From positions 424,893 to 488,892 of the forward strand of contig NZ_JALKAP010000001.1 in NCBI RefSeq assembly GCF_023016045.1: 64,000 bases of DNA, given 5' to 3'. The DNA is from Marinobacter sp. S6332. GTDB taxonomy: Bacteria > Pseudomonadota > Gammaproteobacteria > Pseudomonadales > Oleiphilaceae. A program made the translations under genes and the position numbers. The notes under the pieces are model-generated. The model searched no databases and was not told where the DNA came from. It saw nothing but the letters and a program-made list of their open reading frames with translations. Below are positions 41,378 through 62,543 of the stretch, piece after piece; within the stretch, counting starts at the first letter, position 1; each line of letters starts with the position of its first letter.

Positions 41378-41454
<77 letters not shown>

Positions 41455-41496: not shown

Positions 41497-41732
41497 CGTT
41501 TCTGGCTAGGTACAGGTTGGGTACATAAACCGGCCACCACTCTATCCCCGGTTCACACCCGTTCATCGAAAGCCGCTTCAACGTGCCACGTCTGCGCACG
41601 CTCTCGTTTCCGTTGGCTACTACTTTACCACGCAATCTTTGGCTTATTGCAGTTATAGCCTAATTACACCAGCCAAACATATCTCGTATCCACGTAGAAT
41701 TTAATCGTGTTCACAACTAAACGGAGATGGAG

Positions 41733-41942
41733 ATGAAAGATACGCAGAAAATGTACTTCTCAGATACGGAGGTGGGAAACTACTACTCACTATCCCGATA
41801 CACCATTAGGCGCTGGGTTCGCGAAGGCAAGTTTCCCCCCGGAAAGAAACTGGGCTCTAGAACCAGGCGCTGGCCACTGAGCGACCTTCAAAAGTTCGAT
41901 CAGGAGGTGCTCGGCCGGAATGGGGGTGTGCCTACTGAGTGA
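41733..41942 (+). CDS. AlpA/excisionase-like DNA-binding protein
   Basis: A 69-residue MerR-type winged helix-turn-helix protein (MYFSDTEVGNYYSLSRYTIRRWVREGKFPPGKKLGSRTRRWPLSDLQKF) of the AlpA/excisionase family, which activates integrase genes or directs excision of mobile elements. The second ATG (41733) is chosen because GGAG lies six bases before it. It is 280 bases downstream of the tRNA and on the opposite strand from the defence genes; no integrase is next to it, so the element may be rearranged. Confidence 0.82.
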   Translation: MKDTQKMYFSDTEVGNYYSLSRYTIRRWVREGKFPPGKKLGSRTRRWPLSDLQKFDQEVLGRNGGVPTE

Positions 41943-42081: not shown

Positions 42082-42801
42082 CTAGGCGTGAGAAAAAGGT
42101 GTCGACTCATCGGAGGAAAGGTTTCTGCGGCGATTGATCACTAATTCCGGGGTGTAATGATTCTTATCATCCTGATCTTCAAACCCCAAGCGCTGGTAAA
42201 CGTTACCACCGATACCTGGTATGACATTATTATCCGCTGATTTTTGATCGTCCTGAGCAAAATAAGAATAAGAGAAGCGGCGAGTAATATCGCTCGCGAA
42301 CTCTTTTTCAAGATTCAACTTAGCGTTTGTAAACATCACCGGAGCAACTACATAAATCATTGATGGATTCGATTCACGAATAAGGTGCGTAAGATTCGTT
42401 TTTACCACACAAGCACCAGAAATGATTGATTTTGCGACAATAAGACTCTCTACCGACTTTATAGCAGGTTCGGAGTACTTTCTCTGGATGGGTGCTGTAT
42501 CGGGAATATTTCTGGTTTCGTCTCCAGGAAAACGCTTGTTCCAAAAGCAAGCTACGGAAATCGAGCTAACACTACCCTTCAAGCCTTCAATGATTCCCTG
42601 AGCCAGAAAATCTGCGTCTTCAACTGTACAGGCGATGCCTACAGATTTACCTTCGAGCTTGTCCCTGAGCGCTTTACCATGCTCAAAACCCAGCTGATAC
42701 ATGATATGTTTATATTCTTCAGGGGGCGTTGCAGGGGCGGCTAGACGATCCAATAAAGATTGAATGGAGGCGTTAGCGAGTTCGGTCAGTGTCCGGCTCA
42801 T
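42082..42801 (-). CDS. Phosphoribosyltransferase-like protein of unknown function
   Basis: A 239-residue soluble protein, not recognised as a named family. The order of elements resembles a type I phosphoribosyltransferase fold: VGIACTVEDADFLAQGIIEGL, VSSISVACFWNKR, then SLIVAKSIISGACVVKTNLTHLI, which aligns with the PRPP loop (normally a run of hydrophobics, two acids, then TG) but has AK in place of the two acids, and SMIYVVAPVMFTNAKL. The C-terminus (IPGIGGNVYQRLGF...NHYTPELVINRR) is also PRTase-like. If correct, it may bind rather than turn over a nucleotide. Its ATG overlaps the stop of the nuclease-like gene (ATGA). The call is inference. Confidence 0.5.
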   Translation of the reverse strand: MSRTLTELANASIQSLLDRLAAPATPPEEYKHIMYQLGFEHGKALRDKLEGKSVGIACTVEDADFLAQGIIEGLKGSVSSISVACFWNKRFPGDETRNIPDTAPIQRKYSEPAIKSVESLIVAKSIISGACVVKTNLTHLIRESNPSMIYVVAPVMFTNAKLNLEKEFASDITRRFSYSYFAQDDQKSADNNVIPGIGGNVYQRLGFEDQDDKNHYTPELVINRRRNLSSDESTPFSHA

Positions 42802-43694
42802 ATCAAGTGCCTCTCTAATTCTTCGAATGTAGACGGTTCTTCCATGACTATAATTCTTTGAAATTCAGAGAACTTCTCAGAGCCCACCGAGTACTCAAGT
42901 ACGCCAGAATCTGACTCCAGATAACTCCACTCGAAAAACCCTTGTCCCATAGTATAGTGGAAACCTTCAATTTGCATCAGTATCGCTTCAAATTTTTCAA
43001 GAATGTCAACTCTAGATAGCGATCTAACGTAATTTGGCTCGTGCCGCAGAACCCGCTCCCAAAGATCCTTGAGGTTACAGGGGGTACCACAGTTACTCAC
43101 CCACTCGCCGACAAATAAAGATCCCAGTCTTTCTATCTTATCGAGGTCAGCGTTAACACACAGACTCGCGAGCGCATCGCGGAGCTTGGGTTCAATCTGG
43201 AGGAGGTGGTTTAGAGTCTCTCCAAAGGCGAACTGTTCCACAGCCGAGTAGTTAGAAATATCTTCTGGGATTGATCTTTGGAGCCTTGCTGCTTTCTCTG
43301 CGCAGGGTAAGACGAGCGTGGAGGAAGTTTTGCCCACGCCAGCTCCTTCGTTCAAGAGCTTCTGATACCGGAAATCATCGGCAATCGGATGGTCACCTGA
43401 GCTCCAAGAGACGTTTTCAGTATTTTTGAGCTGGAAGTGCTGATGACAAGAATCTTCGTTCCAGAGAATTACAAAGTCATCGACGAAATCCATCGTTTGT
43501 GTCGATAGGTATGGCGCTGGCAGTCCGTTCTGGATTGTATCCCTCACGAGCTTTGCAGCATTGTAGACGGCGAACCAATTTTCGTATTGAACCCCCTCTC
43601 CACCAGCCTTTCCCCCACGGTGCTTATTTGCGAGATAAGTCGAGGCCGCGAGACCACATACCTTTTTGGAGAGTTCCAGATTGTCCATTTGCAT
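42798..43694 (-). CDS. Nuclease-like protein (candidate D-QxK, Cap4/DUF4297-like N-terminus)
   Basis: A protein of about 298 residues of no named family. The N-terminal region (GGKAGGEGVQYENWFAVYNAAKLV, FVDDFVILW, HQHFQLKNT) has the spacing of a PD-(D/E)xK nuclease core with Glu, Asp and a QxK pair, as in Cap4-type dsDNA endonucleases; the C-terminal part is helical. ATGs at 43694 and 43688 are both possible, with no clear ribosome binding site, and an upstream TTG frame to 43760 is unlikely. It is translationally coupled to the PRTase-like gene, so the two proteins probably act together. Base composition is more AT-rich than the core genes. Nuclease assignment is inference. Confidence 0.5.
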   Translation of the reverse strand: MQMDNLELSKKVCGLAASTYLANKHRGGKAGGEGVQYENWFAVYNAAKLVRDTIQNGLPAPYLSTQTMDFVDDFVILWNEDSCHQHFQLKNTENVSWSSGDHPIADDFRYQKLLNEGAGVGKTSSTLVLPCAEKAARLQRSIPEDISNYSAVEQFAFGETLNHLLQIEPKLRDALASLCVNADLDKIERLGSLFVGEWVSNCGTPCNLKDLWERVLRHEPNYVRSLSRVDILEKFEAILMQIEGFHYTMGQGFFEWSYLESDSGVLEYSVGSEKFSEFQRIIVMEEPSTFEELERHLI

Positions 43695-43760
43695 TATGAG
43701 TTGAGTCCAAATTCGCCAGTATGTAGAAATTAGATGCAGATAGGAGTATATCCGCGCCAA

Positions 43761-43971: not shown

Positions 43972-46900
43972 TCACTGCGTTGTGGACGCCCCCACCACGT
44001 CCATCAGCTTCGCGTAGTCAGTCACGACATCATATTTCACCTTGTCCTGAGCGACCTTTAAATTGATCTCGTCGAAGAACTTTCTAGCACATTCGATCTT
44101 GGTCTTTTCGATTTCCCGCAGTTTCATGGACGACATCGACCCTTTGGTCTCAGCAACAAAGTAGATGTGCTTGATGTTGTCAGCCTGAAAGGAAATCGCC
44201 CAGTCCGGATTGTAATCGCCCACGGGGGTAGGAATCAGAAAGCCTCTCGGCAGCTTGGCGTAAACCACCACTTCACTGCTCGTATCCAATTCTTTCACGA
44301 AGCGGCGCTCAACATCAGAATCCGTAATCGCGTAGTCATATACGTGGTTCTTCAGCTTTTCCGTGGCGCGGGAGAAGTCCTGGCAAGTCTGATTGGCGGT
44401 GAAGATATCCACATCGTACCGTTCATCAACTTCATCGTAGGCCAGTCGCTCAATCACCATAGCGGCTTTTTGTTCAGTGATAAGCCGTGATGCCTCGGCA
44501 ATGAAGTGTTCCGGGTTCTGGCGGAACTGGTTGAACACGGCGGTCTGAATGCTCTGAAGAATGCTGGCTGCGGTCCCACGGATCAAGTGGGCATTTTCTG
44601 ACACCTTACCCAACAGGTCATAGCGGACCCTTGAGTGGATGGAGTCGCCGTATTCGGTAGCCGTTTCTTCAACCTTGAAGCCATCGCCTCTACGCAATTG
44701 TTCGTCGGTCAGCGCCTCTTGCTGAATGCCTTTCTGTACGGTGTACTGCAGCGGTGTAACCCGCAGTTCCTTGTCCAGCGTTGCAATGCACTTGCGCACC
44801 AATTCATCGGAATCAAAATCGACGCGGTACACGGCTTTGCGATTGATGCGCTGCCACAGCGCCTGGAATTCTTTCTTGTCGAAGTTGGCATTGAGCAGGT
44901 TTGTCTTCGGTTTACGTCCATCCTCGATCTTGGGCAGCTGGCCTTCACTGAACACGGTGTCGATCAAGGCAAAGATCTGTTCACCGAATGGCTTCAGATC
45001 CTCGGGTAACTCCGCCAGGGCGCCTTGTGCCTTCGCATCATGGTAGGTATCGATAACTTGGTCTGTATCGTCGGTATAGTCGTTCTTTACCAGATAGCGG
45101 TATATCTTCTTTGCCATGGCAGATGTGACTTCTACAGTGCCTTGCTCGGTTGCCAATAGCTTGCCCGTGAAATAGGCTTCAGTTGCCTGACGCGGCCGGG
45201 CACTCAGATTTTCACTGATTTCCTGTTGCAGCCCGGTAACGAAATCCTTGTAGCTCTCGCTGGCGATCACGGTCAGTACGTTGATGTCATGAACGACGGC
45301 AGGGTTATCCATGCGGTCGCCGTGCCTATCGACTGACAATCGCAGGCCGCGCCCCACCTCTTGGCGGCGGGATATCATGTTGTCGCTGTGCTTAAGCATG
45401 CACATGATAAACACGTTGGGGTTGTCCCAGCCTTCACGCAACGCCGAGTGGGAAAAGATAAACCTCGTAGGTTCCTGAAAGGAGAGCAGACGCTCTTTGT
45501 CTTTCAGGATCAGATCGTAGGCGTCCACATCATCGGAATCGACAGCCCGCTTACCCACTGCGGGGTCTTTCAGACGTTTGGTCTTCTTATCGATGGCGAA
45601 GTAACCCTGGTGAGTGCTCGCCGGGTCAATATCTTCCAGGTACTGGCGGTAGGCCTGATTATCGATGACCAGTTCAGACAGGTATTCATTCTTCAGTAGC
45701 TGATACTCTTCCTCAAAGATGCGGGCGTACTCGCCATTGTCATCTTCCTGATCGTAGTCACGATACTTGGCCACCTCGTCGATAAAGAACAACGACAGTA
45801 CCTTGATGCCCTGCCCGAACAGCTGTTTCTCCCGGTCCAGATGCGCCTTGATGGTCTCGCGGATCTGAATACGACGGATGTCGCCTTCGGAAACGTCGCC
45901 ACTGGCCTCTCCAGCCGTGAGCACCAGCCCATTGGTGAACTCCACGGTGTCAGTAGTGGCGTCAATCTGGCTGATGGTGAAGCCGTCCCGGTATTGATCC
46001 AGCTCACCAGATTCCGCGAACAGATCATCTTTGAAGCGAAGACGCCTGAGCTGACGCTTGATCTCGCCGGATTTGAGTTTTACTTCAAGCTCTATGCGGG
46101 CGACCGGTGCATCCTTGGAGATGTCGATACCTTCCAGATACAGGTAGGCGTTGGTGCCGGCCAGGCCACGTGTCTGGATGCCGCGCACAGCGATCTTTTT
46201 GACCAGTTTTTGGTTGTAGGCGTCCAGAGCATCCAGGCGATGAATACGGTTGTGCTGGGTACGGTGAGTGGCCGAGTAGCGGAGAATTGCTAGCGGATTA
46301 AATTGGGGTAAGGCCTCCATGGTGGCTTTACCTTCCATCTTCTGCGGCTCGTCCAGAATCAGGAAAGGCCGGTTTGCGGCGATTACATCGATAGGCTTGC
46401 GCGACTGAAAGTCATCGAGCTCATCATAAATGCGTCTGTTATCGGCACCCCGGGCGTTGAAGGCCTGGATGTTCATAATCATCACATTGATGCCGGCGTC
46501 GGAAGAAAAACTTTCCAGCTCATGCAGTCGCTTGGAGTTGTAGATGAAGAACCGCGCCTTTTTGCCGTAGCTTTCGGTGAAATGCTCAGCGGTGATCTGC
46601 AGCGACTTATACACGCCCTCGCGGATAGCAATCGAGGGCACCATGATGATGAACTTGCTCCAGCCATAGCGCTTATTCATCTCGAAAATGGTTTTGATGT
46701 AGCAATAGGTCTTGCCGGTGCCGGTCTCCATCTCCACGTCCAGGTGGATGCGTGTGGCGGCCAGGGCATCCTTTTTGTAGGCGGCTTTAGCCGGCACACG
46801 GTTGTTCTTGGTGTCGTAGGTGGTGAAATCCGTCAGTGACGATGACGTCGGGAGGTTCTGCCGACGCTGAACGGCCTGAATGTTCTCTAATACCTGGGTT

Positions 46901-47079
46901 TCACCTAGTGCCAGGTCGGCATTCTTGAAGCCCTCCGCGTCGAAGGCGCCAGTCTGAGCCTGCTGGCCGGGGTCGATGCGGTAGGCCAGGCCGTCACGCA
47001 TGGGTTGACCAGCAAAGCAGTCCACTACGGATTCGACGGCATTCGTTTGGTAAGCCTGGGTTTTGAATTTGAGCTTCAT
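43972..47079 (-). CDS. res: Type III restriction endonuclease subunit Res
   Basis: A 1035-residue SF2 helicase-nuclease. Walker A is METGTGKT (117-124), the DEAD-like box is DEPQ (243-246) as usual in type III Res, helicase motif VI region is [18 protein letters not shown], and the C-terminal PD-(D/E)xK nuclease has Asp959 (NPDW), Glu977 and Lys979 (ETK). It cuts DNA together with Mod when two unmethylated sites are met. It is the last gene of the minus-strand defence run, 100 bases after the frameshifted ATP-binding gene, and appears complete. Confidence 0.93.
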
Positions 47080-47090
47080 AATAAAATTTT

Positions 47091-47174
47091 CTCTTTGCAG
47101 GCTCTTTGCAAAATGGCGGCTCCAAAGAGCTATAACTCGTTGAATGTAATGGGCTTTATGCGAATCTCTTTGCA
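47091..47174. repeat. Three TGCAAAGAG direct repeats upstream of res
   Basis: On the minus strand TGCAAAGAG occurs at 47099-47091, 47110-47102 and 47174-47166, with a weaker ACAAAGAG near 47190 and an inverted CTCTTTGG between them. All lie in the 100-base gap just before the res start. They could be protein-binding sites or mRNA elements controlling Res. Confidence 0.6.
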
Positions 47175-47179
47175 GTTCT

Positions 47180-48843
47180 TCATGTTCTCTTTGTCAGCCT
47201 CCAACAAGATGCTGTGTCGGAACCGGTGTTCTCAATCACTTTTCGGCGGCGCAGCTTTGTCAAAAGCGTGCTGACTTTGGTGCTTTTTTGTTTATCGCTC
47301 AGAGCATCACTCAGCTTATCCAGCAACAGCTGGTTGATCTCCGCTCGACTGGCCTGCCCAAATTTTTCCAGGTAATCCGTCAGCAACTTGGCATAGAACT
47401 CATCGTCTTGGGGGCGGGTACGGATATAGTCGGCCTTGTCTGCCGTTACCTTGGCAACCGTCGCAGAAACGTGCAAATGGGGTTTGCGACCCTCAATCAG
47501 ACCTGCTCGCCGTAGGCGGCTTATGGCCTCATCAGGAATTGGCAGTTTCTTTTGCACTCGATCCAGGGCCAGCACATCCGCCAGTGGCAGATCAGTTTTT
47601 TGAATCAATAGACGGCTGTAAGCGGGGTCAACCACGCCGCCGTATATGGTCAACCGCACACTACTCGGTTCGGCAAGGTCATATCCGGCATTGGGAAATA
47701 GCGACGAGCCTGACGGGCGTACATGTCGTGAATGCCGTATCCCATGGTATCAATCATGTTCAGCTCAGACATGGCCTGGGCAAGAAAGGGATTGCGGTAG
47801 CGGTGGGGTGTGCGATTGCCCTCCAGGTAATCATCCGGCGTGCCTTCGTAGAAGTTGCCTACATTTTCGAAGATCAGCCTGTCGGACTGTTCGATCACCA
47901 CCACCCGGCCATGGAGAGTGTAGTCCTGATGAGCGATGCAGTTATGCAAGGCTTCCAGCACCATCTTCTGGTCATATTTGGACACCTCAATCGGCAACAA
48001 CTCATCTTCTGGTAACAGACGCAGCTGGATATTACGGATGCATTGATACAGCTGGGTGGTGGTCAGCAGAAAGGGCGGGGCAAAGTGTTGATAGGCCCGC
48101 TCTGCGCCCTCCAGCTTCCAGGTCATCTGTGCAGGGTGTGGCGACAGGTGCCAGGCTGCCTCGGGCTTGCCCAGCAACAGGAGCGCAGTTCGGGTGACCT
48201 GACCGTTTTGGGTGACCCGTGCCCGATCAAGAAAGGTTGGCAATGGCCAGGCCATGACTTCCTCGGCATTAAAGCGGTTGGCATACTTTTTTGCGAACGC
48301 CTCCCGTGCTCTTGCAAGAGCCGCTTCGTCCAGATCGGTCAGGCTGGCGGCCGGCACCAATTGCGCGCTCCAGTCCTGAGCGAGAGTTTGCTGACGAATT
48401 TCGTCCAGCTTGTCCAGGCTGAGGGAGACCAGACTTTCCCCGGCCCGGGCGTGGTAGTGACCCTTCCAAGAGATTGGGATGCCCCTTGGAGCCGCGGGAA
48501 TTTCAAATAACAACACCCGCCCATCTGCGTGTTGTAGTTCGTGGATATCACGAAAGGTAATGCTGGGCTCGGTACTTTGTGCCACCTGCAGCTTCAGGCT
48601 ATGCAGCCGCTCGGATTCGCTGCGGTAGTTTGTTCCCACCACCTCCCGGGTTTTATTGCTCACGCCAAACACCAGCCAGGCACGCTCCAGCCCTCGCAAA
48701 TTGGCTTCGTTGCTGAGGGCAGAGAAATACGCACCAATCTTGTTGGTGTCGTAGTCATTGCCCGCCTCTTTGAACTCCGCCACCTCGTTTTCCCAAGTGC
48801 GGATCAAGCCTTCAAGCAGCGTGTTCAGGGCCAGTTGGTCCAT
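47180..48843 (-). pseudogene. AlbA/Schlafen-type ATP-binding protein gene, split by a frameshift
   Basis: Two adjacent frames together encode one protein of about 550 residues. The upstream part (48843-47650) carries an AlbA_2/Schlafen-like domain (ENEVAEFKEAG...ALSNEANLRGLERAWLVFGV) and a GHKL-type ATP-binding region (MVLEALHNCIAHQDYTLHGRVVVIEQSDRLIFENVGNF). It then reaches a stop at 47650. The downstream part (from a GTG at 47659 to 47180) continues with RLTIYGGVVDPAYSRLLI and a winged-helix C-terminus. Removing one TG from GTGTG at 47657-47661 rejoins them. It could be a pseudogene, a sequencing error, or a variable switch. Genes of this kind often sit between mod and res. Confidence 0.85.
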
Positions 48844-48854
48844 GCCGTGATTCC

Positions 48855-50720
48855 TTAGAGGCTTCTGACTTCGGTGCTGGGTGAAAGCTGGCGGAAAATC
48901 TGCTCGACGTTTATTTTCACCGCATCAGAGACGAACCCATTGTCGCGGAAAACTACGCGCAAGGGCTCATGCTTGGCCAGCTCTTTGACCAGATCCTCCG
49001 TAACACCACTGTCAAAACAAGCGACCAGCGCATTGTCATCGACGAAAAATACGGTTTTGTCTTGCAGGGTTTCGCGACGAATCGGCAGAGTCAGATCTAC
49101 ACCCCAGTCCACCAGCACCTGGAACAAAAGATCTTCTGGAGTGCGGTCGGATTTAACGTTATCCACCGCTTCTAGCAGATCGCCTTGAGATAGCTCATCG
49201 GGACGGTAGTAGATGTCCTTCATGTTCGAGTTGTCGAGCTTGAACACCCGGAATCCCTTTGTATTCTTGCCTTGAGCCTTAAACTCTTCGATGACGCTGA
49301 GCAAGCGCATCCTACCCATGTCGAAAATGGTCTTCATGCGGTCTTCGGGAATGGGGAGCGGCTCAGCAATTTGAACTCCGATAAAGCGCCGGTTTCCACC
49401 GTCTATTCGATTCTGCTCCAGAACAGCGTGGGCAGTTGGAGCGCTACCGGAAAAGAAGTCCATGACGATCGCATTTTCGTCTGGCTTGGTTGCTAGCTGA
49501 ACGATTCGCTGAACTAGCTCCACGGGTTTGACTGAGTTCAGTACGTTTTCGGTATTTTCGAATGGAACGTATTTAAGAAGCGTCTTCTTTGCATCCTGAG
49601 TGTGGCCAACCTCTTTATAAGACCAAAGTGTTTGTGGCGTCCGGCCAGAAGAAACTTCAGAAAGAAATTTTTTAACAGCAGGTGTGTTGTTTCCATCCTT
49701 TCCCCACCAGATTCGATTGTCAGCTTCGAGTGCAAGAAATTTTTCCTTGCTGATCCGCCAATATGTGCCGGTTGGTGGACCAGAAATTCTTCTGCCGGAA
49801 GGTGTTTCGACAGGATAAACACCCGCATCGTAGGGGTTGCGCGCGGTCATGTTCTCGGCTTTCCATGGTCCGCGCGGATCATCGTCTAGGTTCTTGTATC
49901 GAGCCGCCATCTCTTCTGTGCGGGGAAGCTGGTTTGGAAACCACGCCTGCCGGTTCTTGGCAAAAACCAGGACAAAATCATGGTCTTCTGAAAACCATTT
50001 GGCTGAGTTTTTAGGTGCATAAACCTTTTGCCAAATGATCGTGGCCACGAAGTTCATATCTCCAAAAACCTCGCAACCAATTTTTCTCAAACTATCGACT
50101 TCGTTATCGTCAATGGAGATGAAGAGAACCCCATCATCGGCAAGCAGATTTTTGGCCAGCCGCAGCCGGGGATACATCATTGAAAGCCAATCCGAATGAA
50201 ACCGACCATTCGCCTCAGTATTGGCAATAAGCCGATTACCAAGCTCCTCCGCTTGGCCGGACTGCCTTAAATAGTCTCCCGTCTCAGTTGAATAATCGTC
50301 GTCATAGATGAAATCCCGGCCGGTATTATAAGGCGGGTCTATGTAGATCAACTTGACCCGGCCAAGGTAGGATTCTTGCAATACCTTGAGCACCTCAAGG
50401 TTGTCACCCTCGATCAGAAGGTTGTCTGAAGTATCAAAGTCGACGCTTTGATCGCGAACCGGGCGAAGTGTCTTGCCAATTGGTGCATTTGCGGTCGCCA
50501 GCGCCTCTCGCTTCCCTGGCCAGTCAAGTCGATACCGCTCCTGTGGTCCCTCGACTATGTCATTACTCAGCTCCTGCTTCAGTTGATCAAAATCCACGGA
50601 TAGGCGCAATTTTCCGGTTGTTTCATCCCGAGTTTCGGTCACGCATCCTGGAAACAGCTCACGAATCTTTGCAATGTTGTCCTGGCTCAGATCAGGGCTG
50701 TGCATTTTGAGTTTGTCCAC
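48855..50720 (-). CDS. mod: Type III DNA-methyltransferase subunit Mod
   Basis: A 621-residue class-beta N6-adenine methyltransferase. The catalytic DPPY is at 128-131 (YIDPPYNTGRDFIYDDDYS) and comes before the SAM-binding motif (MDFFSGSAPTAHAV near 415), the order that defines the beta class. FSGSA is a slight variant of the usual FxGxG. The target-recognition domain lies between. A GTG at 50720 with AGAGG upstream is the likely start; an ATG at 50705 is the alternative. It methylates and specifies the site for Res. Confidence 0.93.
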   Translation of the reverse strand: MDKLKMHSPDLSQDNIAKIRELFPGCVTETRDETTGKLRLSVDFDQLKQELSNDIVEGPQERYRLDWPGKREALATANAPIGKTLRPVRDQSVDFDTSDNLLIEGDNLEVLKVLQESYLGRVKLIYIDPPYNTGRDFIYDDDYSTETGDYLRQSGQAEELGNRLIANTEANGRFHSDWLSMMYPRLRLAKNLLADDGVLFISIDDNEVDSLRKIGCEVFGDMNFVATIIWQKVYAPKNSAKWFSEDHDFVLVFAKNRQAWFPNQLPRTEEMAARYKNLDDDPRGPWKAENMTARNPYDAGVYPVETPSGRRISGPPTGTYWRISKEKFLALEADNRIWWGKDGNNTPAVKKFLSEVSSGRTPQTLWSYKEVGHTQDAKKTLLKYVPFENTENVLNSVKPVELVQRIVQLATKPDENAIVMDFFSGSAPTAHAVLEQNRIDGGNRRFIGVQIAEPLPIPEDRMKTIFDMGRMRLLSVIEEFKAQGKNTKGFRVFKLDNSNMKDIYYRPDELSQGDLLEAVDNVKSDRTPEDLLFQVLVDWGVDLTLPIRRETLQDKTVFFVDDNALVACFDSGVTEDLVKELAKHEPLRVVFRDNGFVSDAVKINVEQIFRQLSPSTEVRSL

Positions 50721-50762: not shown

Positions 50763-53114
50763 CTATACGCGAATACGTACCGGTACCCTGGTATCCAAGC
50801 GAGCCTTGATTTGTGTATAAAGTTGCGCGGATAAATTCTGCTTATCGCGGAGACTTACCAGAAGTGAGTAGCTTTCTTCGCTATCACATAGACTTTCGCC
50901 CCATGGAAAATCATTGCGCGTGACTACAACAAATAGTTTTTTATTGCGTAATGCGGAGTTGGAATTGAATTGAACAAATTTCCAGGATTCAGCTTGGACT
51001 GTTCCCTTGCTTCGGGCAGTCTGCCCAATAGTCGCCCCGGCCAGTTCCTTGATGCTTTGATAGTCATCCTTCTTCGTGGCCTTATTAAACATAGTAGTGA
51101 CATGCTCAAGGTCTCGCGCTGCAACCAATTTAAAATCAATGCGTGTGGCTCGATACTTTATTCGTGTTGAGCGAACAGGCGGCGCGTAGGCCAAAGCGAC
51201 CGCAATTTCCCGAAGTCGCTTCTTTCCGCCGCTGGTGAAGTCAGGCGGCACCGGGATTTCATAAAAATGGTGCCGCTTGTTTTCGATCCTGCTCTCCGTA
51301 ATGAGGGTGACAGCATTTTCACTGGACCGCTTCAGCGCAGTTTCATCCACCTCACCATAGCCACAAACCCGGCTAAGCGCTTTGTTTTGTTCAAAGAGGT
51401 GCTGACTGGCCTGTGGTATAGCTGCGTTCAGGCAGAGTTGCGCGCGGATGAAATTGGCTGTGGCATCCGGGTGTTCGTGGAATATGGATGCTGCCAGATG
51501 AGCCACCTGGGGAGCTGCCATGCTGGTCCCTCCATCCACTAAAAAAGGATGGCCGCTTGCAAACTGATGGTGTGTGGATACAACCCCAAGGCCGGTTAGC
51601 CCGTCCAATAATGCGTAGTTAGCGCGCGCGTGTATCGCCCAGTTTCCGCCATGTGCTACCAGTTCTGGTTTGATGGCTCCATCGACAGAGTGGCCGTTAC
51701 GGGTAAAAGGGGATGGCTGGTCCGCCCCTGCAATTGGTATTTCTGCCGGGTCGAGCGGATAACGCTGACTGTTATAAGTTTGGTTGTGTCGCGCCAGGCT
51801 GCCTACGGTAAGCGCGTTTAATGCGGGTGCGGGCTCAATGATCCGCCAACTTTCATTCAGTAGATAGTTTGGGTATTGATCCCGCCATTCCAGACCATCT
51901 GGAGAGTCTGCATTGATCCGATGGTTTCCTGATGACACTACAAACAGCACGCCGAGCTCACGAGAAAGGGTGTCCAACGTCACCGAAAATCCTTTCAGGT
52001 GTCCTCCAACGTAAGGCTTGTTGGAATCTCCAAAGGACAAGTTGAACACTTTGCAACCATGCTCGGTAACGAAGTATCGAACGGCCTCTTCTATGTGGTT
52101 CTCTACAAAGCCTGTAGTGTTTTCATTGTTTCTGTCGAGAATCCGACCACTGTACAAGCGCAAGGTTGGCGCAAAGGCTCCAGCGCGAAGATGTTTTTCA
52201 AAATCGCCATAGAGTGCCAGGCCCGCTACGTGGGTGCCGTGCCCATTTTCGTCATGCGGGCCTTCGCCCGGCAGAAAACTCGCTGTTTTAGCTACGGCAG
52301 CTTTCAACAACGGATGCCCATCGGCAATGCCACTATCCAGCACTACAACACCCGGCGCTTGGGCTGAAGGTGCCTGAATTTCTGGGAATTGCTGAATATC
52401 TTGGAATACTACCGAGCGCTCCAGCGCAAAGCTTGGTGGAAGGTCGATTGATCGAATATCCCTATGGTGGAGCAATGATTTAGCCTGAGCGGCTGTACAG
52501 CGCACACGGTAGAGTGTCAGCTCTGGCTTTTTGACCTGGTCGAGCTTCTCAATACTTTGTTCTGACAGCCAGCTTTCAAACTTAGTCCAGGCTTGTTGTC
52601 TGGCATCAGGCTTATCTTCTAAAGGCCAGATCTCGACGTCCAAAAGAAAATCTTCATTATCGGGAAAGCCATGCTGCTTCAGTGCCCAACCTTTACGGTC
52701 TGCCGAGCTCCAACCATCCACGCTTTGTAATGCGTAGATAACTTCTTTGTTGGTGACATATTTCCCCGAAGCCATGCTGGCAAGCCGAGCTTCAAATTGT
52801 GCCATTGCGGCATTCGTAGCGAAGCCGATGACGACGGTTTCGTCTTCCTGGCTGACAACTTCTATCTCAGTGGAAATTTTTCTCAGGTCGTCAGGGTTAA
52901 AACCTTTCTGAACTGTGAACCGAAAGAGCTTACGCTCATCAAAACCACCGACATCTTCACAGGCTTCCCTCGTTGCGTTAGCGAGTTTTCCGAGAAGCCC
53001 TCTTCCATGAGAGGGCACATCGTCCGGGATCTCGGTGCGCGGGCCACTACCTGAGCGCTTTTGGTTGACCGGCGCTTCTCGTTGAATATTCAGATGCGGA
53101 AAGGTTTCTTCCAT
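50763..53114 (-). CDS. ietS: S8 subtilisin-like protease, IetS-like
   Basis: A 783-residue cytosolic subtilase with no signal peptide. The catalytic triad is Asp260 (VVVLDSG), His292 (NGHGTHVAG) and Ser531 (GGTSMAAP), with oxyanion Asn397 (SSGN). The N-terminal 250 and C-terminal 200 residues have no recognised domain and may bind the partner. It follows the AAA ATPase by six bases, the ietA-ietS arrangement first described on Agrobacterium Ti plasmids and later reported as an antiphage system. Protease activation by the ATPase is expected but not demonstrated here. Confidence 0.88.
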   Translation of the reverse strand: MEETFPHLNIQREAPVNQKRSGSGPRTEIPDDVPSHGRGLLGKLANATREACEDVGGFDERKLFRFTVQKGFNPDDLRKISTEIEVVSQEDETVVIGFATNAAMAQFEARLASMASGKYVTNKEVIYALQSVDGWSSADRKGWALKQHGFPDNEDFLLDVEIWPLEDKPDARQQAWTKFESWLSEQSIEKLDQVKKPELTLYRVRCTAAQAKSLLHHRDIRSIDLPPSFALERSVVFQDIQQFPEIQAPSAQAPGVVVLDSGIADGHPLLKAAVAKTASFLPGEGPHDENGHGTHVAGLALYGDFEKHLRAGAFAPTLRLYSGRILDRNNENTTGFVENHIEEAVRYFVTEHGCKVFNLSFGDSNKPYVGGHLKGFSVTLDTLSRELGVLFVVSSGNHRINADSPDGLEWRDQYPNYLLNESWRIIEPAPALNALTVGSLARHNQTYNSQRYPLDPAEIPIAGADQPSPFTRNGHSVDGAIKPELVAHGGNWAIHARANYALLDGLTGLGVVSTHHQFASGHPFLVDGGTSMAAPQVAHLAASIFHEHPDATANFIRAQLCLNAAIPQASQHLFEQNKALSRVCGYGEVDETALKRSSENAVTLITESRIENKRHHFYEIPVPPDFTSGGKKRLREIAVALAYAPPVRSTRIKYRATRIDFKLVAARDLEHVTTMFNKATKKDDYQSIKELAGATIGQTARSKGTVQAESWKFVQFNSNSALRNKKLFVVVTRNDFPWGESLCDSEESYSLLVSLRDKQNLSAQLYTQIKARLDTRVPVRIRV

Positions 53115-53120
53115 GACGGC

Positions 53121-54116
53121 TTAGTTTCCTTGTATGCGAGCCCTTCGGGCGTCTTCACGACGAATGGCCGATTGAAGGTGTCGTTCGCTGAGAAATTCTT
53201 TACCTGTTAGCACCATGTCTTTTGCTGCCCGACGCAAGACGCGCTCCACATCGGCATGGCTCATGCCCTTGAAAAGACTGGTTATACGTGCATCGTCAAT
53301 GTCAAACTCGCGACGCAACCCGCGAAGCTTGATAGACAATAATCGCCGCAATTGCTCCAGGTTCGGAGATTCGAAGACCAGCACTTCGTCAAATCGGCGC
53401 CAGATTGCAGCATCTAGGATACGTTCATGGTTAGTGGCCGCGACCAGAATGCTCTTTCCCTCGTAGGCATCCAGCATTTGCAGGAAGGCGTTGACAACAC
53501 GCTTCAGTTCGCCATGCTCAGCCGTATCCGCGCGTTCTTTGGCCAACGCATCGAACTCATCAAACAAAACAACCATCGGTGTGGTGGCTATGAAATCAAA
53601 GACCTGCCGCAAATTGGAGGCGGTTTCTCCCAACAGAGAAGACACCACGCTATCAATGCGAACGATTGCTAGCGGTAGTCCCAGCTCGCTGGCCAGAACT
53701 TCTGCTGTCAGCGTCTTCCCACACCCCGGTGGGCCGCAGAACAACAGGCGGTCAGCTGGATGCAAGCCATAGCTATGCAGAGCTTCAGCTCGATGGTGTT
53801 CCTGTAATAGCTCGTTCAGTAAAGAAGCGTTTTCATCGGATAACACAGCATCTTCGATGCGACGGACGGGTTCGTTGATCTGCAAAAGTGGAAGGTTGCG
53901 TTCTTTATCTTTTGGGACGCGATCACTCAAGAGCGTATTTGTCGCCCCAGCGGTGTTACGGCGACCATAGAGAATTCTTTCCAGGTCGTTTGCCAGTAGA
54001 TGATGCTTTCTGGCACGTTCTTCCTGAATCAGTTGTTCAGAAACCCGCTTGAAGGCTTCGTGGTTGCCTTCTGTTCCCGTTTTTACAAGCTGCCGGAGAA
54101 GTTTGCCGGTGGCCAT
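53121..54116 (-). CDS. ietA: AAA+ ATPase, IetA-like
   Basis: A 331-residue AAA+ ATPase with Walker A GPPGCGKT (128-135), Walker B VVLFDEFDAL (Asp186, Glu187), an arginine-finger region near IWRRFDEVL, and an N-terminal helical region of about 100 residues. It is paired with the IetS-like protease. In known IetAS pairs the ATPase is needed to control the protease. It is preceded by the DUF4391 gene with a 47-base gap, the largest gap in the first half of the operon. Confidence 0.88.
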   Translation of the reverse strand: MATGKLLRQLVKTGTEGNHEAFKRVSEQLIQEERARKHHLLANDLERILYGRRNTAGATNTLLSDRVPKDKERNLPLLQINEPVRRIEDAVLSDENASLLNELLQEHHRAEALHSYGLHPADRLLFCGPPGCGKTLTAEVLASELGLPLAIVRIDSVVSSLLGETASNLRQVFDFIATTPMVVLFDEFDALAKERADTAEHGELKRVVNAFLQMLDAYEGKSILVAATNHERILDAAIWRRFDEVLVFESPNLEQLRRLLSIKLRGLRREFDIDDARITSLFKGMSHADVERVLRRAAKDMVLTGKEFLSERHLQSAIRREDARRARIQGN

Positions 54117-61537: not shown

Positions 61538-61676
61538 CTATGCGAGGGAGCCCCAACCATTGAGCAGGCGATAGGCCTCTGAAACGCTCAATGGCGGCTC
61601 ACCATCATCCGGATTCCATTCTGGCGTCGCATCGATTTGCTCAGTTGGAATAAAAAACCCAATTAAAGCTGCCGAA
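61538..61676 (-). pseudogene. Out-of-frame C-terminal tail of the ADP-ribosyltransferase-like gene
   Basis: In another frame the minus strand continues past the stop at 61663 with RSAALIGFFIPTEQIDATPE and WNPDDGEPPLSVSEAYRLLN, then GWGSLA and a TAG at 61540-61538. It has no start codon of its own. Deleting eight bases at the CGCTCAA repeat (61677-61691) joins it seamlessly to the upstream coding part (VER to SAALIG), which argues that it was once the end of that protein. Confidence 0.55.
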
Positions 61677-62304
61677 CGCTCAATCGCTCAACCGAAATCG
61701 GCTTCAACAGTTTCCAGTTGATCAGGTCGACGGCGGTTTGGCCGGTACCGCGGATCTTCTCGTAGCGATCAAGCGTTTCCATCTTATCGTCACCGTTTTC
61801 GGTGGCGATTTCGTGAAAACTTAACCCATCGATCTGGAAGAGCAGTGGCTGATATTCGCTCTTGAGTATCGAGACCAATGGCCCGGGCAGCACATCCAAG
61901 CAATCAAGCGAGCCTGTTTTTAACTGAAGAAGGTGAATGAGATTCTTTATATAGTGAAGCAGCTCACAGCCTTCAGAGAACCCGTAACGTGCCGCGACCC
62001 TCTCTTCGGGGCAGATGTAGGTCTCTCCGTGTTGATAATTGTGCCGATTACCGTCGCAAGTGAGTCCTTGTTCGACGACAGGCAGCAGGTTGTGACGGTT
62101 ATCGATCCAGAGCGGCTGATCGTGCAATTGCCGGTCGGCGAACTCGAACAGATCGACAAACGCCTGAACCCAACCGTTTTCCTTCACAACATCCTGACCG
62201 CCCAGACCGAATCGATAGATATCGGGGAGAAACAGGGAGCTGGTGCCGTGAAAGAAAGGCACGGTGAACGTGCCATTGGCGTCTAATAACGTACTGGTTC
62301 TCAC
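61663..62304 (-). CDS. ADP-ribosyltransferase-like hypothetical protein, C-terminus frameshifted
   Basis: A protein of about 213 residues from a GTG at 62304 whose GTGA overlaps the stop of the upstream gene. VPFFHGTSSLFLPDIYRFGLGG and HGETYICPEERVAARYGFSEG resemble the His and Tyr motifs of ADP-ribosyltransferase-fold proteins (H-G-T near the start, Y in a strand with ExxAxRYG); the third residue, a Glu, is not assigned. The frame ends early at RQL because of a CGCTCAA repeat at 61677-61691. It could be a toxin or modification enzyme; this is inference from motifs. Confidence 0.45.
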   Translation of the reverse strand: MRTSTLLDANGTFTVPFFHGTSSLFLPDIYRFGLGGQDVVKENGWVQAFVDLFEFADRQLHDQPLWIDNRHNLLPVVEQGLTCDGNRHNYQHGETYICPEERVAARYGFSEGCELLHYIKNLIHLLQLKTGSLDCLDVLPGPLVSILKSEYQPLLFQIDGLSFHEIATENGDDKMETLDRYEKIRGTGQTAVDLINWKLLKPISVERLSVRQL

Positions 62305-62543
62305 CAGGCGGCCCTGACCAGGAACCACATACCGCTGTAGTGCGAACCCCTATCCGTTTTATCCGGGGTATCGAAGACGACCTCGTGTAGGTCTCCTTCA
62401 GTAGCGCCCTGCGCTACCTGATCAGCGATCACCCGAGCGGCAGTTTTCGCCAGCGCTTCTCTGTGACGGTCTGCGACCGGTCCTTCGCCTGTGTCCGATG
62501 TGGTGCACTTTGACCACCACTCAACGTCAAAAGTTACTTTCAT
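62301..62543 (-). CDS. Hypothetical protein
   Basis: An 80-residue protein of unknown family (MKVTFDVEWWSKCTTSDTGEG, then a helix HREALAKTAARVIADQVAQGATEGDLHEVVF, ending YSGMWFLVRAAW). AGGAG precedes the ATG at the right distance. The stop overlaps the GTG of the ADP-ribosyltransferase-like gene, so the two are coupled and may be a toxin and small partner. Confidence 0.6.
   Translation of the reverse strand: MKVTFDVEWWSKCTTSDTGEGPVADRHREALAKTAARVIADQVAQGATEGDLHEVVFDTPDKTDRGSHYSGMWFLVRAAW

Follow-up and report, generated by a model that had tools for sequence, protein, structure and literature searches.

A UPRT-fold protein coupled to a predicted Cap4-type nuclease: a candidate toxin-antitoxin-like module whose putative restraint is found alone in Microcystis phages

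On balance, we lean towards the view that two coupled genes of Marinobacter sp. S6332 form a toxin-antitoxin-like module, with a UPRT-fold pseudoenzyme acting as the restraint on a Cap4-type nuclease, and that phages captured this restraint as a counter-defense. The computed evidence consists of the folds of the two proteins, the conservation of their motifs, the overlap of the genes, their co-inheritance, a one-way loss, and phage copies of the second gene that carry a scar of the first.

The window (the whole 64,000-nucleotide stretch of DNA analyzed) carries both genes on the reverse strand. Gene 1, encoding the predicted Cap4-type PD-(D/E)XK nuclease, occupies 42798-43694 (-) and was read as 298 residues from an ATG at 43694; its frame is open further upstream, to a TTG at 43760. 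Gene 2, encoding the UPRT-fold protein, occupies 42082-42801 (-) and specifies 239 residues from an ATG that lies inside the stop of gene 1. The resulting ATGA start/stop overlap (42798-42801, -) is likely to couple the translation of the two genes. As noted in a preliminary description of this DNA, the genes overlap in this way, stand between an AlpA-like gene and a type III restriction gene near a tRNA-Pro, are AT-richer than the core (GC 0.449 for gene 2 and 0.475 for gene 1, versus 0.546 in bases 1-41000), and encode the motifs VDDFVILW, HFQLK and SLIVAKSIISGA. The observation made in that description is confirmed, and its interpretation is partly supported.

A rare two-gene unit

Relatives of gene 2 were sought in one genome per species from 84,980 species with two gene 2 peptide patterns, a design that makes the scan non-exhaustive and blind to gene 1 standing alone. 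The scan returned 38 loci from Cyanobacteria, Gamma- and Betaproteobacteria, a Bacteroidetes metagenome-assembled genome (MAG), and two MAGs of doubtful assignment. Gene 1 sequence was present directly upstream of gene 2 in 32 of the 38 loci and was essentially full length in 26, counting L017, in which the last ~40 residues are missing. The other six comprised one frame-shifted gene, three partial genes, one with the nuclease core deleted, and one locus at which both genes had decayed. Gene 1 was absent from six loci, and in these gene 2 was broken in two and cut by the end of the locus in one. Among 36 loci with both genes (the 32 scan loci, a congener, two plasmids, and a viral contig), the junction was a 4-bp overlap in 26 and a 1-bp overlap in 2. 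The proposal of a real two-gene unit was thus upheld, and the adjacency of the pair, which was to be checked across genomes, proved to be kept in several phyla.

The protein distance matrices of the two genes were strongly correlated across 29 loci (r = 0.93), and none of 2000 permutations gave a value as high. Mean identity was 0.53 for gene 2 versus 0.41 for gene 1, gene 2 being the more conserved. Comparison with a congener gave a dN/dS of ~0.1 for both genes, the gene 2 value being approximate. Since the adjacent frames are kept across phyla and dN/dS is this low, the pair is more than a product of chance.

Pairs were found on cyanobacterial plasmids of 10 kb and 319 kb, and tRNA genes lie nearby in the window and at L022, L037, and L040, three of the 19 other loci scanned. 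In the betaproteobacterial loci of Nitrosomonas nitrosa and Paraburkholderia, a tRNA-Arg (L037:4661-4736; L040:4661-4736) stands a few hundred bases upstream of the pair. Profile searches of genomes, in which at most 6 or 7 candidates per genome were scored so that misses are possible, detected either gene in the window's own genome alone among 369 gammaproteobacterial genomes, and full-length gene 2 in 9 of 386 cyanobacterial genomes, with a weak partial match in one more. Gene 1 was present in 2 of 97 relatives, the window's genome included. The two-gene unit is rare among the surveyed genomes.

Gene 1 is predicted to encode a Cap4-type nuclease

The gene 1 protein of the window had no match above cut-off in Pfam, PADLOC, NCBIfam, or PHROGs. 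No Pfam match to a Cap4-type nuclease was obtained with either this protein or 29 members of its family at E up to 1, and at that threshold searches of PADLOC with gene 1 and gene 2 of the window returned nothing. Sequence searches of the PDB with gene 1, as a single sequence or as a profile, gave only weak, unrelated rows, which were discarded. The AlphaFold (AF2) model of gene 1 had a mean pLDDT of 91.3 (26 rows). Foldseek matches to this model were weak, with mostly PD-(D/E)XK enzymes on top and none at E < 0.001; the best were nicking endonucleases (E 0.035), and an LmuA chain stood at rank 8. The family was not identified by Foldseek alone and was given by VIA, a re-alignment of the Foldseek candidates. 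The 13 best of the 50 VIA entries listed were Cap4-type immune nucleases or complexes that contain one (LmuA/Lamassu, Cap4, HerA-DUF4297, Hachiman, and Avs3), as classed by their titles, which do not give the subunit for 8zue_A, 9ux7_C, and 9hqx_A. These 13 entries aligned over 160-178 residues with Z scores of 8.4-12.3 and rmsd values of 3.3-4.2 (Z of 12.3 for LmuA, 11.9 for Cap4, 11.3 for HerA-DUF, 11.1 for Hachiman, and 10.7 for Avs3). The next entry was EcoT38I (Z 7.9), and further LmuA and HerA-DUF4297 entries scored only Z 4.7-5.6. The nuclease domain spans approximately residues 26-225; one VIA entry reaches residue 268, and residues 226-298 are barely covered.

Residues E38, D72, D73, Q88, and K90 were invariant in all 29 selected full-length gene 1 rows. 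This alignment omits L010, L017, L019, L023, L029, L041, L046, and L047, which are near-copies, partial, core-deleted, or shifted, together with the loci without gene 1. The preliminary description had guessed at a Cap4-type nuclease from its Glu-Asp-QxK spacing. Because the best VIA entries are all of Cap4 type, this guess is now backed by fold as well as by spacing, and structure prediction, the check that had been suggested, returned a Cap4-type nuclease fold with the motif in 29/29 rows. These models predict that gene 1 encodes a Cap4-type PD-(D/E)XK nuclease; since the curated sequence models do not match it, gene 1 would be at best a sequence-divergent branch of this group.

Gene 2 is a UPRT homologue with a rebuilt pocket

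The gene 2 protein of the window likewise had no match above cut-off in Pfam, PADLOC, NCBIfam, or PHROGs. The UPRT model PF14681 was matched at E up to 1 by 5 of 37 gene 2 members (best 2e-4), and at this threshold the window protein had no match to it. With a 37-row gene 2 profile and a threshold of E 10, the PDB yielded a single sequence, the UPRT of Sulfolobus (1vst; E 2.5e-4, best stretch 0.0043). Searches of the AF2 model (pLDDT 85.6, 34 rows) with Foldseek matched UPRTs at E 4e-12. In VIA, the 14 best entries scored Z 16.9-20.2 over a fold covering residues 6-208; 11 of these are titled UPRT, and TT0130, AQ2163, and Fur1p, which are among the 14, we take to be UPRTs. Other PRTases scored at most Z 11.8. 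The PRTase-like fold previously proposed for the second protein was therefore found, as a UPRT fold. Weak rows for Herpes_UL3, DUF7894, and phrog_1353 and those from phmmer were dropped, and hhalign of gene 2 with close UPRTs of the Marinobacter order was uninformative. Among named relatives, that of M. orientalis (L010; 94% identical) is closest to gene 2, and an ordinary UPRT is encoded elsewhere in the window's genome.

Three charged residues of the UPRT pocket are replaced in gene 2. The arginine of RAG corresponds to E61 and the aspartate of DPMLATGGS to K124, both in the HMMER alignment to 1vst and in a MAFFT joint alignment, and the aspartate of PGLGD corresponds to G199 in the MAFFT joint alignment only. 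We assume that these three are PRPP and uracil pocket residues of UPRT. Each replacement is present in 37 of 37 selected gene 2 rows, and E61, D62, D64, N88, K124, and C131 are invariant in the same rows, an alignment that excludes L010, the broken or cut copies (L042 and L044-L047), and the phage copies (L005, L006, L008, and L009). Gene 2 has a PGIG loop like the PGLG of UPRT and a C-terminal extension, and it lacks a segment that presumably corresponds to the one forming the beta-arm of UPRT. The suggestion that the acidic PRPP residues had been replaced holds for the aspartate that became K124; the UPRT PRPP motif, however, contains a single acid where two are usual, and beyond this motif there are two more pocket replacements, R to E and D to G. 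Thus, gene 2 is a UPRT homologue with a rebuilt pocket. As judged from these sequences, ordinary phosphoribosyl transfer by a protein with such a pocket is unlikely, but gene 2 may still bind a nucleotide-like ligand.

One-way loss of the nuclease gene

In the same profile searches of 386 cyanobacterial genomes, an intact gene 1 was present in six, always beside gene 2, and no intact gene 1 without gene 2 was found. Conversely, three of the nine full-length cyanobacterial gene 2 copies lacked an intact gene 1. Two of these three represent one lineage with identical gene 2, in which a gene 1 remnant begins at about residue 221 and the nuclease core is gone. The gene 1 core was lost independently in Symploca (L023), and Leptolyngbya BC1307 (L035) has kept gene 2 in a genome with no gene 1 match. 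To account for the orphan state, the tree requires five changes, no fewer than four by its starred branches, and its bootstrap had not settled. The dN/dS between orphan copies was 0.20 (L023/L025), a value that cannot date the loss. Decay of gene 2 was also seen (L044, L045, and L047), as were gene 1 fragments without gene 2, one in G471 and a second fragment in G232. Upstream of orphan gene 2 copies, ORFs that appear PIN-like by eye were observed (L025:1609-2345 and L035:5498-5911); these had no NCBIfam match.

One-way loss of this kind is the pattern that an antidote would show, and it is also expected of a harmless neighbor of a costly nuclease. As in toxin-antitoxin pairs, the genes are coupled and one is retained on loss of the other; gene 2 would be the one that neutralizes.

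Gene 2 without gene 1 in Microcystis phages

Gene 2 without gene 1 was found in IMG/VR contigs that match nine Microcystis phage or cyanophage records of the Ma-LMM01 group (91-92% over 791-917 bases). The gene 2-bearing phage contigs encode a tail protein, as determined on an identical stretch of L007. A comparison set was formed from 63 viral loci with a common gene upstream of the site. Gene 2 follows a tRNA-Tyr in six of these, whole in four and cut in two by a contig end exactly 100 bases inside the gene; the six represent about two phage lineages and not six events. Both flanks without gene 2 were present in 34 loci, with 593-614 bases between tRNA-Tyr and the tail gene in 19 and 35-39 bases in 15, and another 22 had other neighbors or were cut. 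One of the 63 loci carries a different, 183-aa gene in the gene 2 slot (L107:4696-5247), which suggests that the site may be a variable cargo spot.

In five of the six loci, the 27 bases that precede phage gene 2 correspond to the final codons of gene 1, and ~22 such bases remain in L155. The left edge of the insert has the short word AAGACTTG in common with the empty site, and the right edge, less exactly, has CCTAACCC in common with it. In Ma-LMM01 itself (NC_008562; L163:4239-4265), 26 of the 27 scar bases follow tRNA-Tyr without gene 2, and L112 has 26 of 27 at the same distance from tRNA-Tyr, also without gene 2. Because the phage contigs carry gene 2 together with a scar left by the end of gene 1, these sequences suggest that phages took the partner and not the nuclease; some would then have lost gene 2 again, unless the scar spread by recombination.

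The phage gene 2 copies are >99% DNA-identical to the one in L019, a contig assigned to Beijerinckiaceae by binning, in which gene 1 is represented by its C-terminal part alone, at the contig end. Relatives of the 1070-aa protein encoded next to gene 2 of L019 are present in 34 of 292 cyanobacterial genomes, and L019 is for this reason probably cyanobacterial and mis-binned. Identification of L019 as a CyRepA1 plasmid was rejected, as the 1070-aa protein matched neither the CyRepA1 model nor the Geminocystis Rep. In L007, the whole pair is joined to a phage tail region; this contig may be an assembly chimera through the common gene 2.

Proposed mechanism and alternative explanations

In the module that we favor, gene 1 would be a DNA-cutting effector of Cap4 type, and gene 2, an altered UPRT homologue, would bind gene 1 or its trigger and so keep the nuclease off. 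Because both would be made from a single coupled mRNA, the nuclease would never lack its restraint. Release of the nuclease, and with it destruction of DNA, would follow infection or loss of the element bearing the pair, and phages carrying gene 2 alone would neutralize the nuclease. Retention of the UPRT pocket in an altered shape points to a nucleotide-like ligand that would govern this release, and the conserved pocket, together with the higher conservation of gene 2, suggests nucleotide sensing over plain binding. Nuclease activity, inhibition, the ligand, and the anti-phage function are what we infer from these patterns. The earlier proposal that a PRTase homologue controls a nuclease gains support from the one-way loss and from the phage capture of gene 2 alone, and it is kept here as a proposal. 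More tentatively, and at somewhat less than an even chance, a salvage enzyme would have become a nucleotide-gated catch on a Cap4-type nuclease, and phages of the Ma-LMM01 type would have gained, and some of them lost, the catch alone as an anti-defense; the Ma-LMM01 scar would then be a fossil of the nuclease gene.

Several points weigh against the proposed module. A protein that binds a ligand or catalyzes a reaction would explain the higher conservation of gene 2 better than a plain antitoxin would. With only the C-terminus of gene 1 in L019, a whole host pair for the near-identical copy is not in evidence, and the Ma-LMM01 scar could have arisen by recombination rather than by loss of gene 2. 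Early loss of a costly nuclease beside a harmless gene would mimic one-way loss, and the decayed gene 2 copies and solitary gene 1 fragments described above also count against the module, as does the little enrichment for defense among neighborhoods, for which the pair loci alone were scanned.

The same molecular logic could serve a plasmid or island rather than defense, the nuclease killing cells that lose the element. An addiction module of this kind would account for the plasmid-borne pairs, for the tRNA genes near the pair in the window and at three of 19 other loci, and for neighbors that vary among loci; gene 2 alone in Microcystis phage contigs is, however, easier to explain if the nuclease acts during infection. 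The phage evidence favors phage defense over plasmid stabilization, and we consider addiction unlikely. As cyclic oligonucleotides do for Cap4, a nucleotide might instead activate gene 1 through its C-terminal part, with gene 2 producing, modifying, or sequestering that nucleotide. Ligand-gated Cap4 is among the nearest nuclease relatives of gene 1, the gene 2 pocket is retained though re-shaped, and a sponge-like gene 2 would profit a phage too. Against such signaling, which we regard as improbable, the catalytic positions of gene 2 are replaced, only ~73 residues follow the nuclease domain, and no SAVED match was found among 29 gene 1 members (Pfam, E up to 1).

If gene 2 marked or protected DNA, for instance by exchanging a base, while gene 1 cut unmarked DNA, orphan and phage-borne gene 2 copies would resemble orphan methyltransferases. 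One-way loss and phage capture would fit this restriction-modification-like arrangement, as would the six gene 2 residues invariant in 37/37 rows, which is the behavior of an active site. It is nonetheless less probable still than signaling: no DNA-binding part is apparent in a 239-aa protein whose fold covers residues 6-208, the residues for phosphoribosyl transfer are replaced, and we know of no PRTase that acts on DNA. Least probable of all, gene 2 would serve phages and cells through a nucleotide-metabolism role of its own, and its association with a nuclease would be incidental. Its UPRT fold and the orphan copies in several lineages would agree with such a role, which is countered by the pairing across phyla, the conserved overlap, the correlated distances, the replaced pocket residues, and the ordinary UPRT elsewhere in the window's genome.

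Relation to known systems

Nucleases of the Cap4 type are found in unrelated immune systems, where a different partner controls them in each case, and several act with a separate partner gene. CBASS Cap4, LmuA, HerA-DUF4297, HamA, and Avs3, whose grouping as Cap4-type nuclease effectors is in part our assumption, share with gene 1 the fold of residues 26-225 and the E-D-QxK motif. The pair differs from these systems in that the partner of gene 1 is a UPRT-fold protein and there is no Pfam match. No HerA, HamB, LmuB, or CD-NTase gene was recognized next to the pair in the window. The partner genes of HerA-DUF4297, Hachiman, and Lamassu are thus missing from its direct neighbors, which are AlpA-like and type III Res genes; the CD-NTase of Cap4-type CBASS was likewise absent from the window neighbors scanned, and the constant partner is gene 2. 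The whole fold of gene 2 is like that of UPRT (upp, PF14681; Z up to 20.2), from which it differs in the three replaced pocket charges, the lack of a beta-arm segment, the C-terminal extension, and the coupling to a nuclease gene.

In PMC9122126, DprA-PRTase is an anti-phage pair and retron PRTases are probable effectors; these resemble the proposed pair in placing a PRTase-fold protein in a two-gene anti-phage unit. The PRTase of DprA-PRTase is there the presumed effector with DprA as its partner, whereas gene 2 is UPRT-like and has no PADLOC match. The partner of gene 2 also has a PD-(D/E)XK fold in place of the DprA-like partner of DprA-PRTase and ShosTA. DUF4297 contains a Cap4-like nuclease domain according to PMC12198126, and a validated E. 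coli system includes a PRTase according to PMC13092281, where a relative of gene 2 is possible. A pairing of a UPRT-like protein with a Cap4-type nuclease was not described among the top matches in open-licence PMC text. The statement that no named system has this pairing agrees with this result and with the lack of matches above cut-off in Pfam, PADLOC, NCBIfam, and PHROGs.

Phage neutralizers without their toxins have parallels: phage PhiTE reportedly carries an antitoxin mimic against ToxIN, and a phage-borne antitoxin mimic against DarTG is also said to exist. As with phage gene 2, the neutralizer is carried without the toxin; here the case is made from sequence, and the component has a UPRT fold. 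If the proposal is true, Cap4-type nucleases would have a control partner of a new kind, a UPRT-fold pseudoenzyme. Phages disturb pyrimidine or PRPP pools, and the pair could link these pools directly to a DNA-destroying effector. The phage scar would be a natural experiment that points to which component is the antidote, and the proposal assigns a possible function to the variable site of these phages, which infect a bloom-forming cyanobacterium.

The Marinobacter island

The island that holds the pair lies beside a tRNA-Pro (cgg; 41378-41454, +). Attachment repeats at this tRNA-Pro were rejected, since no second copy of its 3' end was found in the window. An AlpA/HTH_17-type small regulator (41727-41942, +) stands outside the conserved unit. 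Directly upstream of the pair is a type III restriction (Res) subunit gene (43972-47079, -), an order repeated in L002 and in M. orientalis (L010). The island also holds an IetAS defense system (50763-54116, -), composed of the IetS subtilase (50763-53114, -) and the IetA ATPase (53121-54116, -), and, farther along, a SNF2-type helicase gene.

Among homologues, neighborhoods were weakly defense-like in a scan of the pair loci alone. In 114 neighbor ORFs from 34 loci, no family had >5 matches among the 25 commonest families listed, defense families were few, and no third conserved gene was seen beside the pair. A defense-island explanation for all loci was set aside as weak, given this little enrichment. 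The placement beside a defense operon noted earlier holds in the Marinobacter window and, because homologue neighborhoods are weakly defense-like, is mainly a property of the Marinobacter island.

Within the type III region (43972-50720, -), mod and res are separated by a gene for an AlbA_2/HATPase protein (47650-48843, -) and by a small ORF (47180-47659, -). A 221-aa ORF beginning FHGTSSLFLP (61663-62328, -), without PADLOC or NCBIfam match, has a relative in M. orientalis (L010:10166-10807), where it is located past the opposite end of the pair. A mod-like gene of M. orientalis is followed directly by res, and its product is alike in the C-terminal part and different in the N-terminal part.
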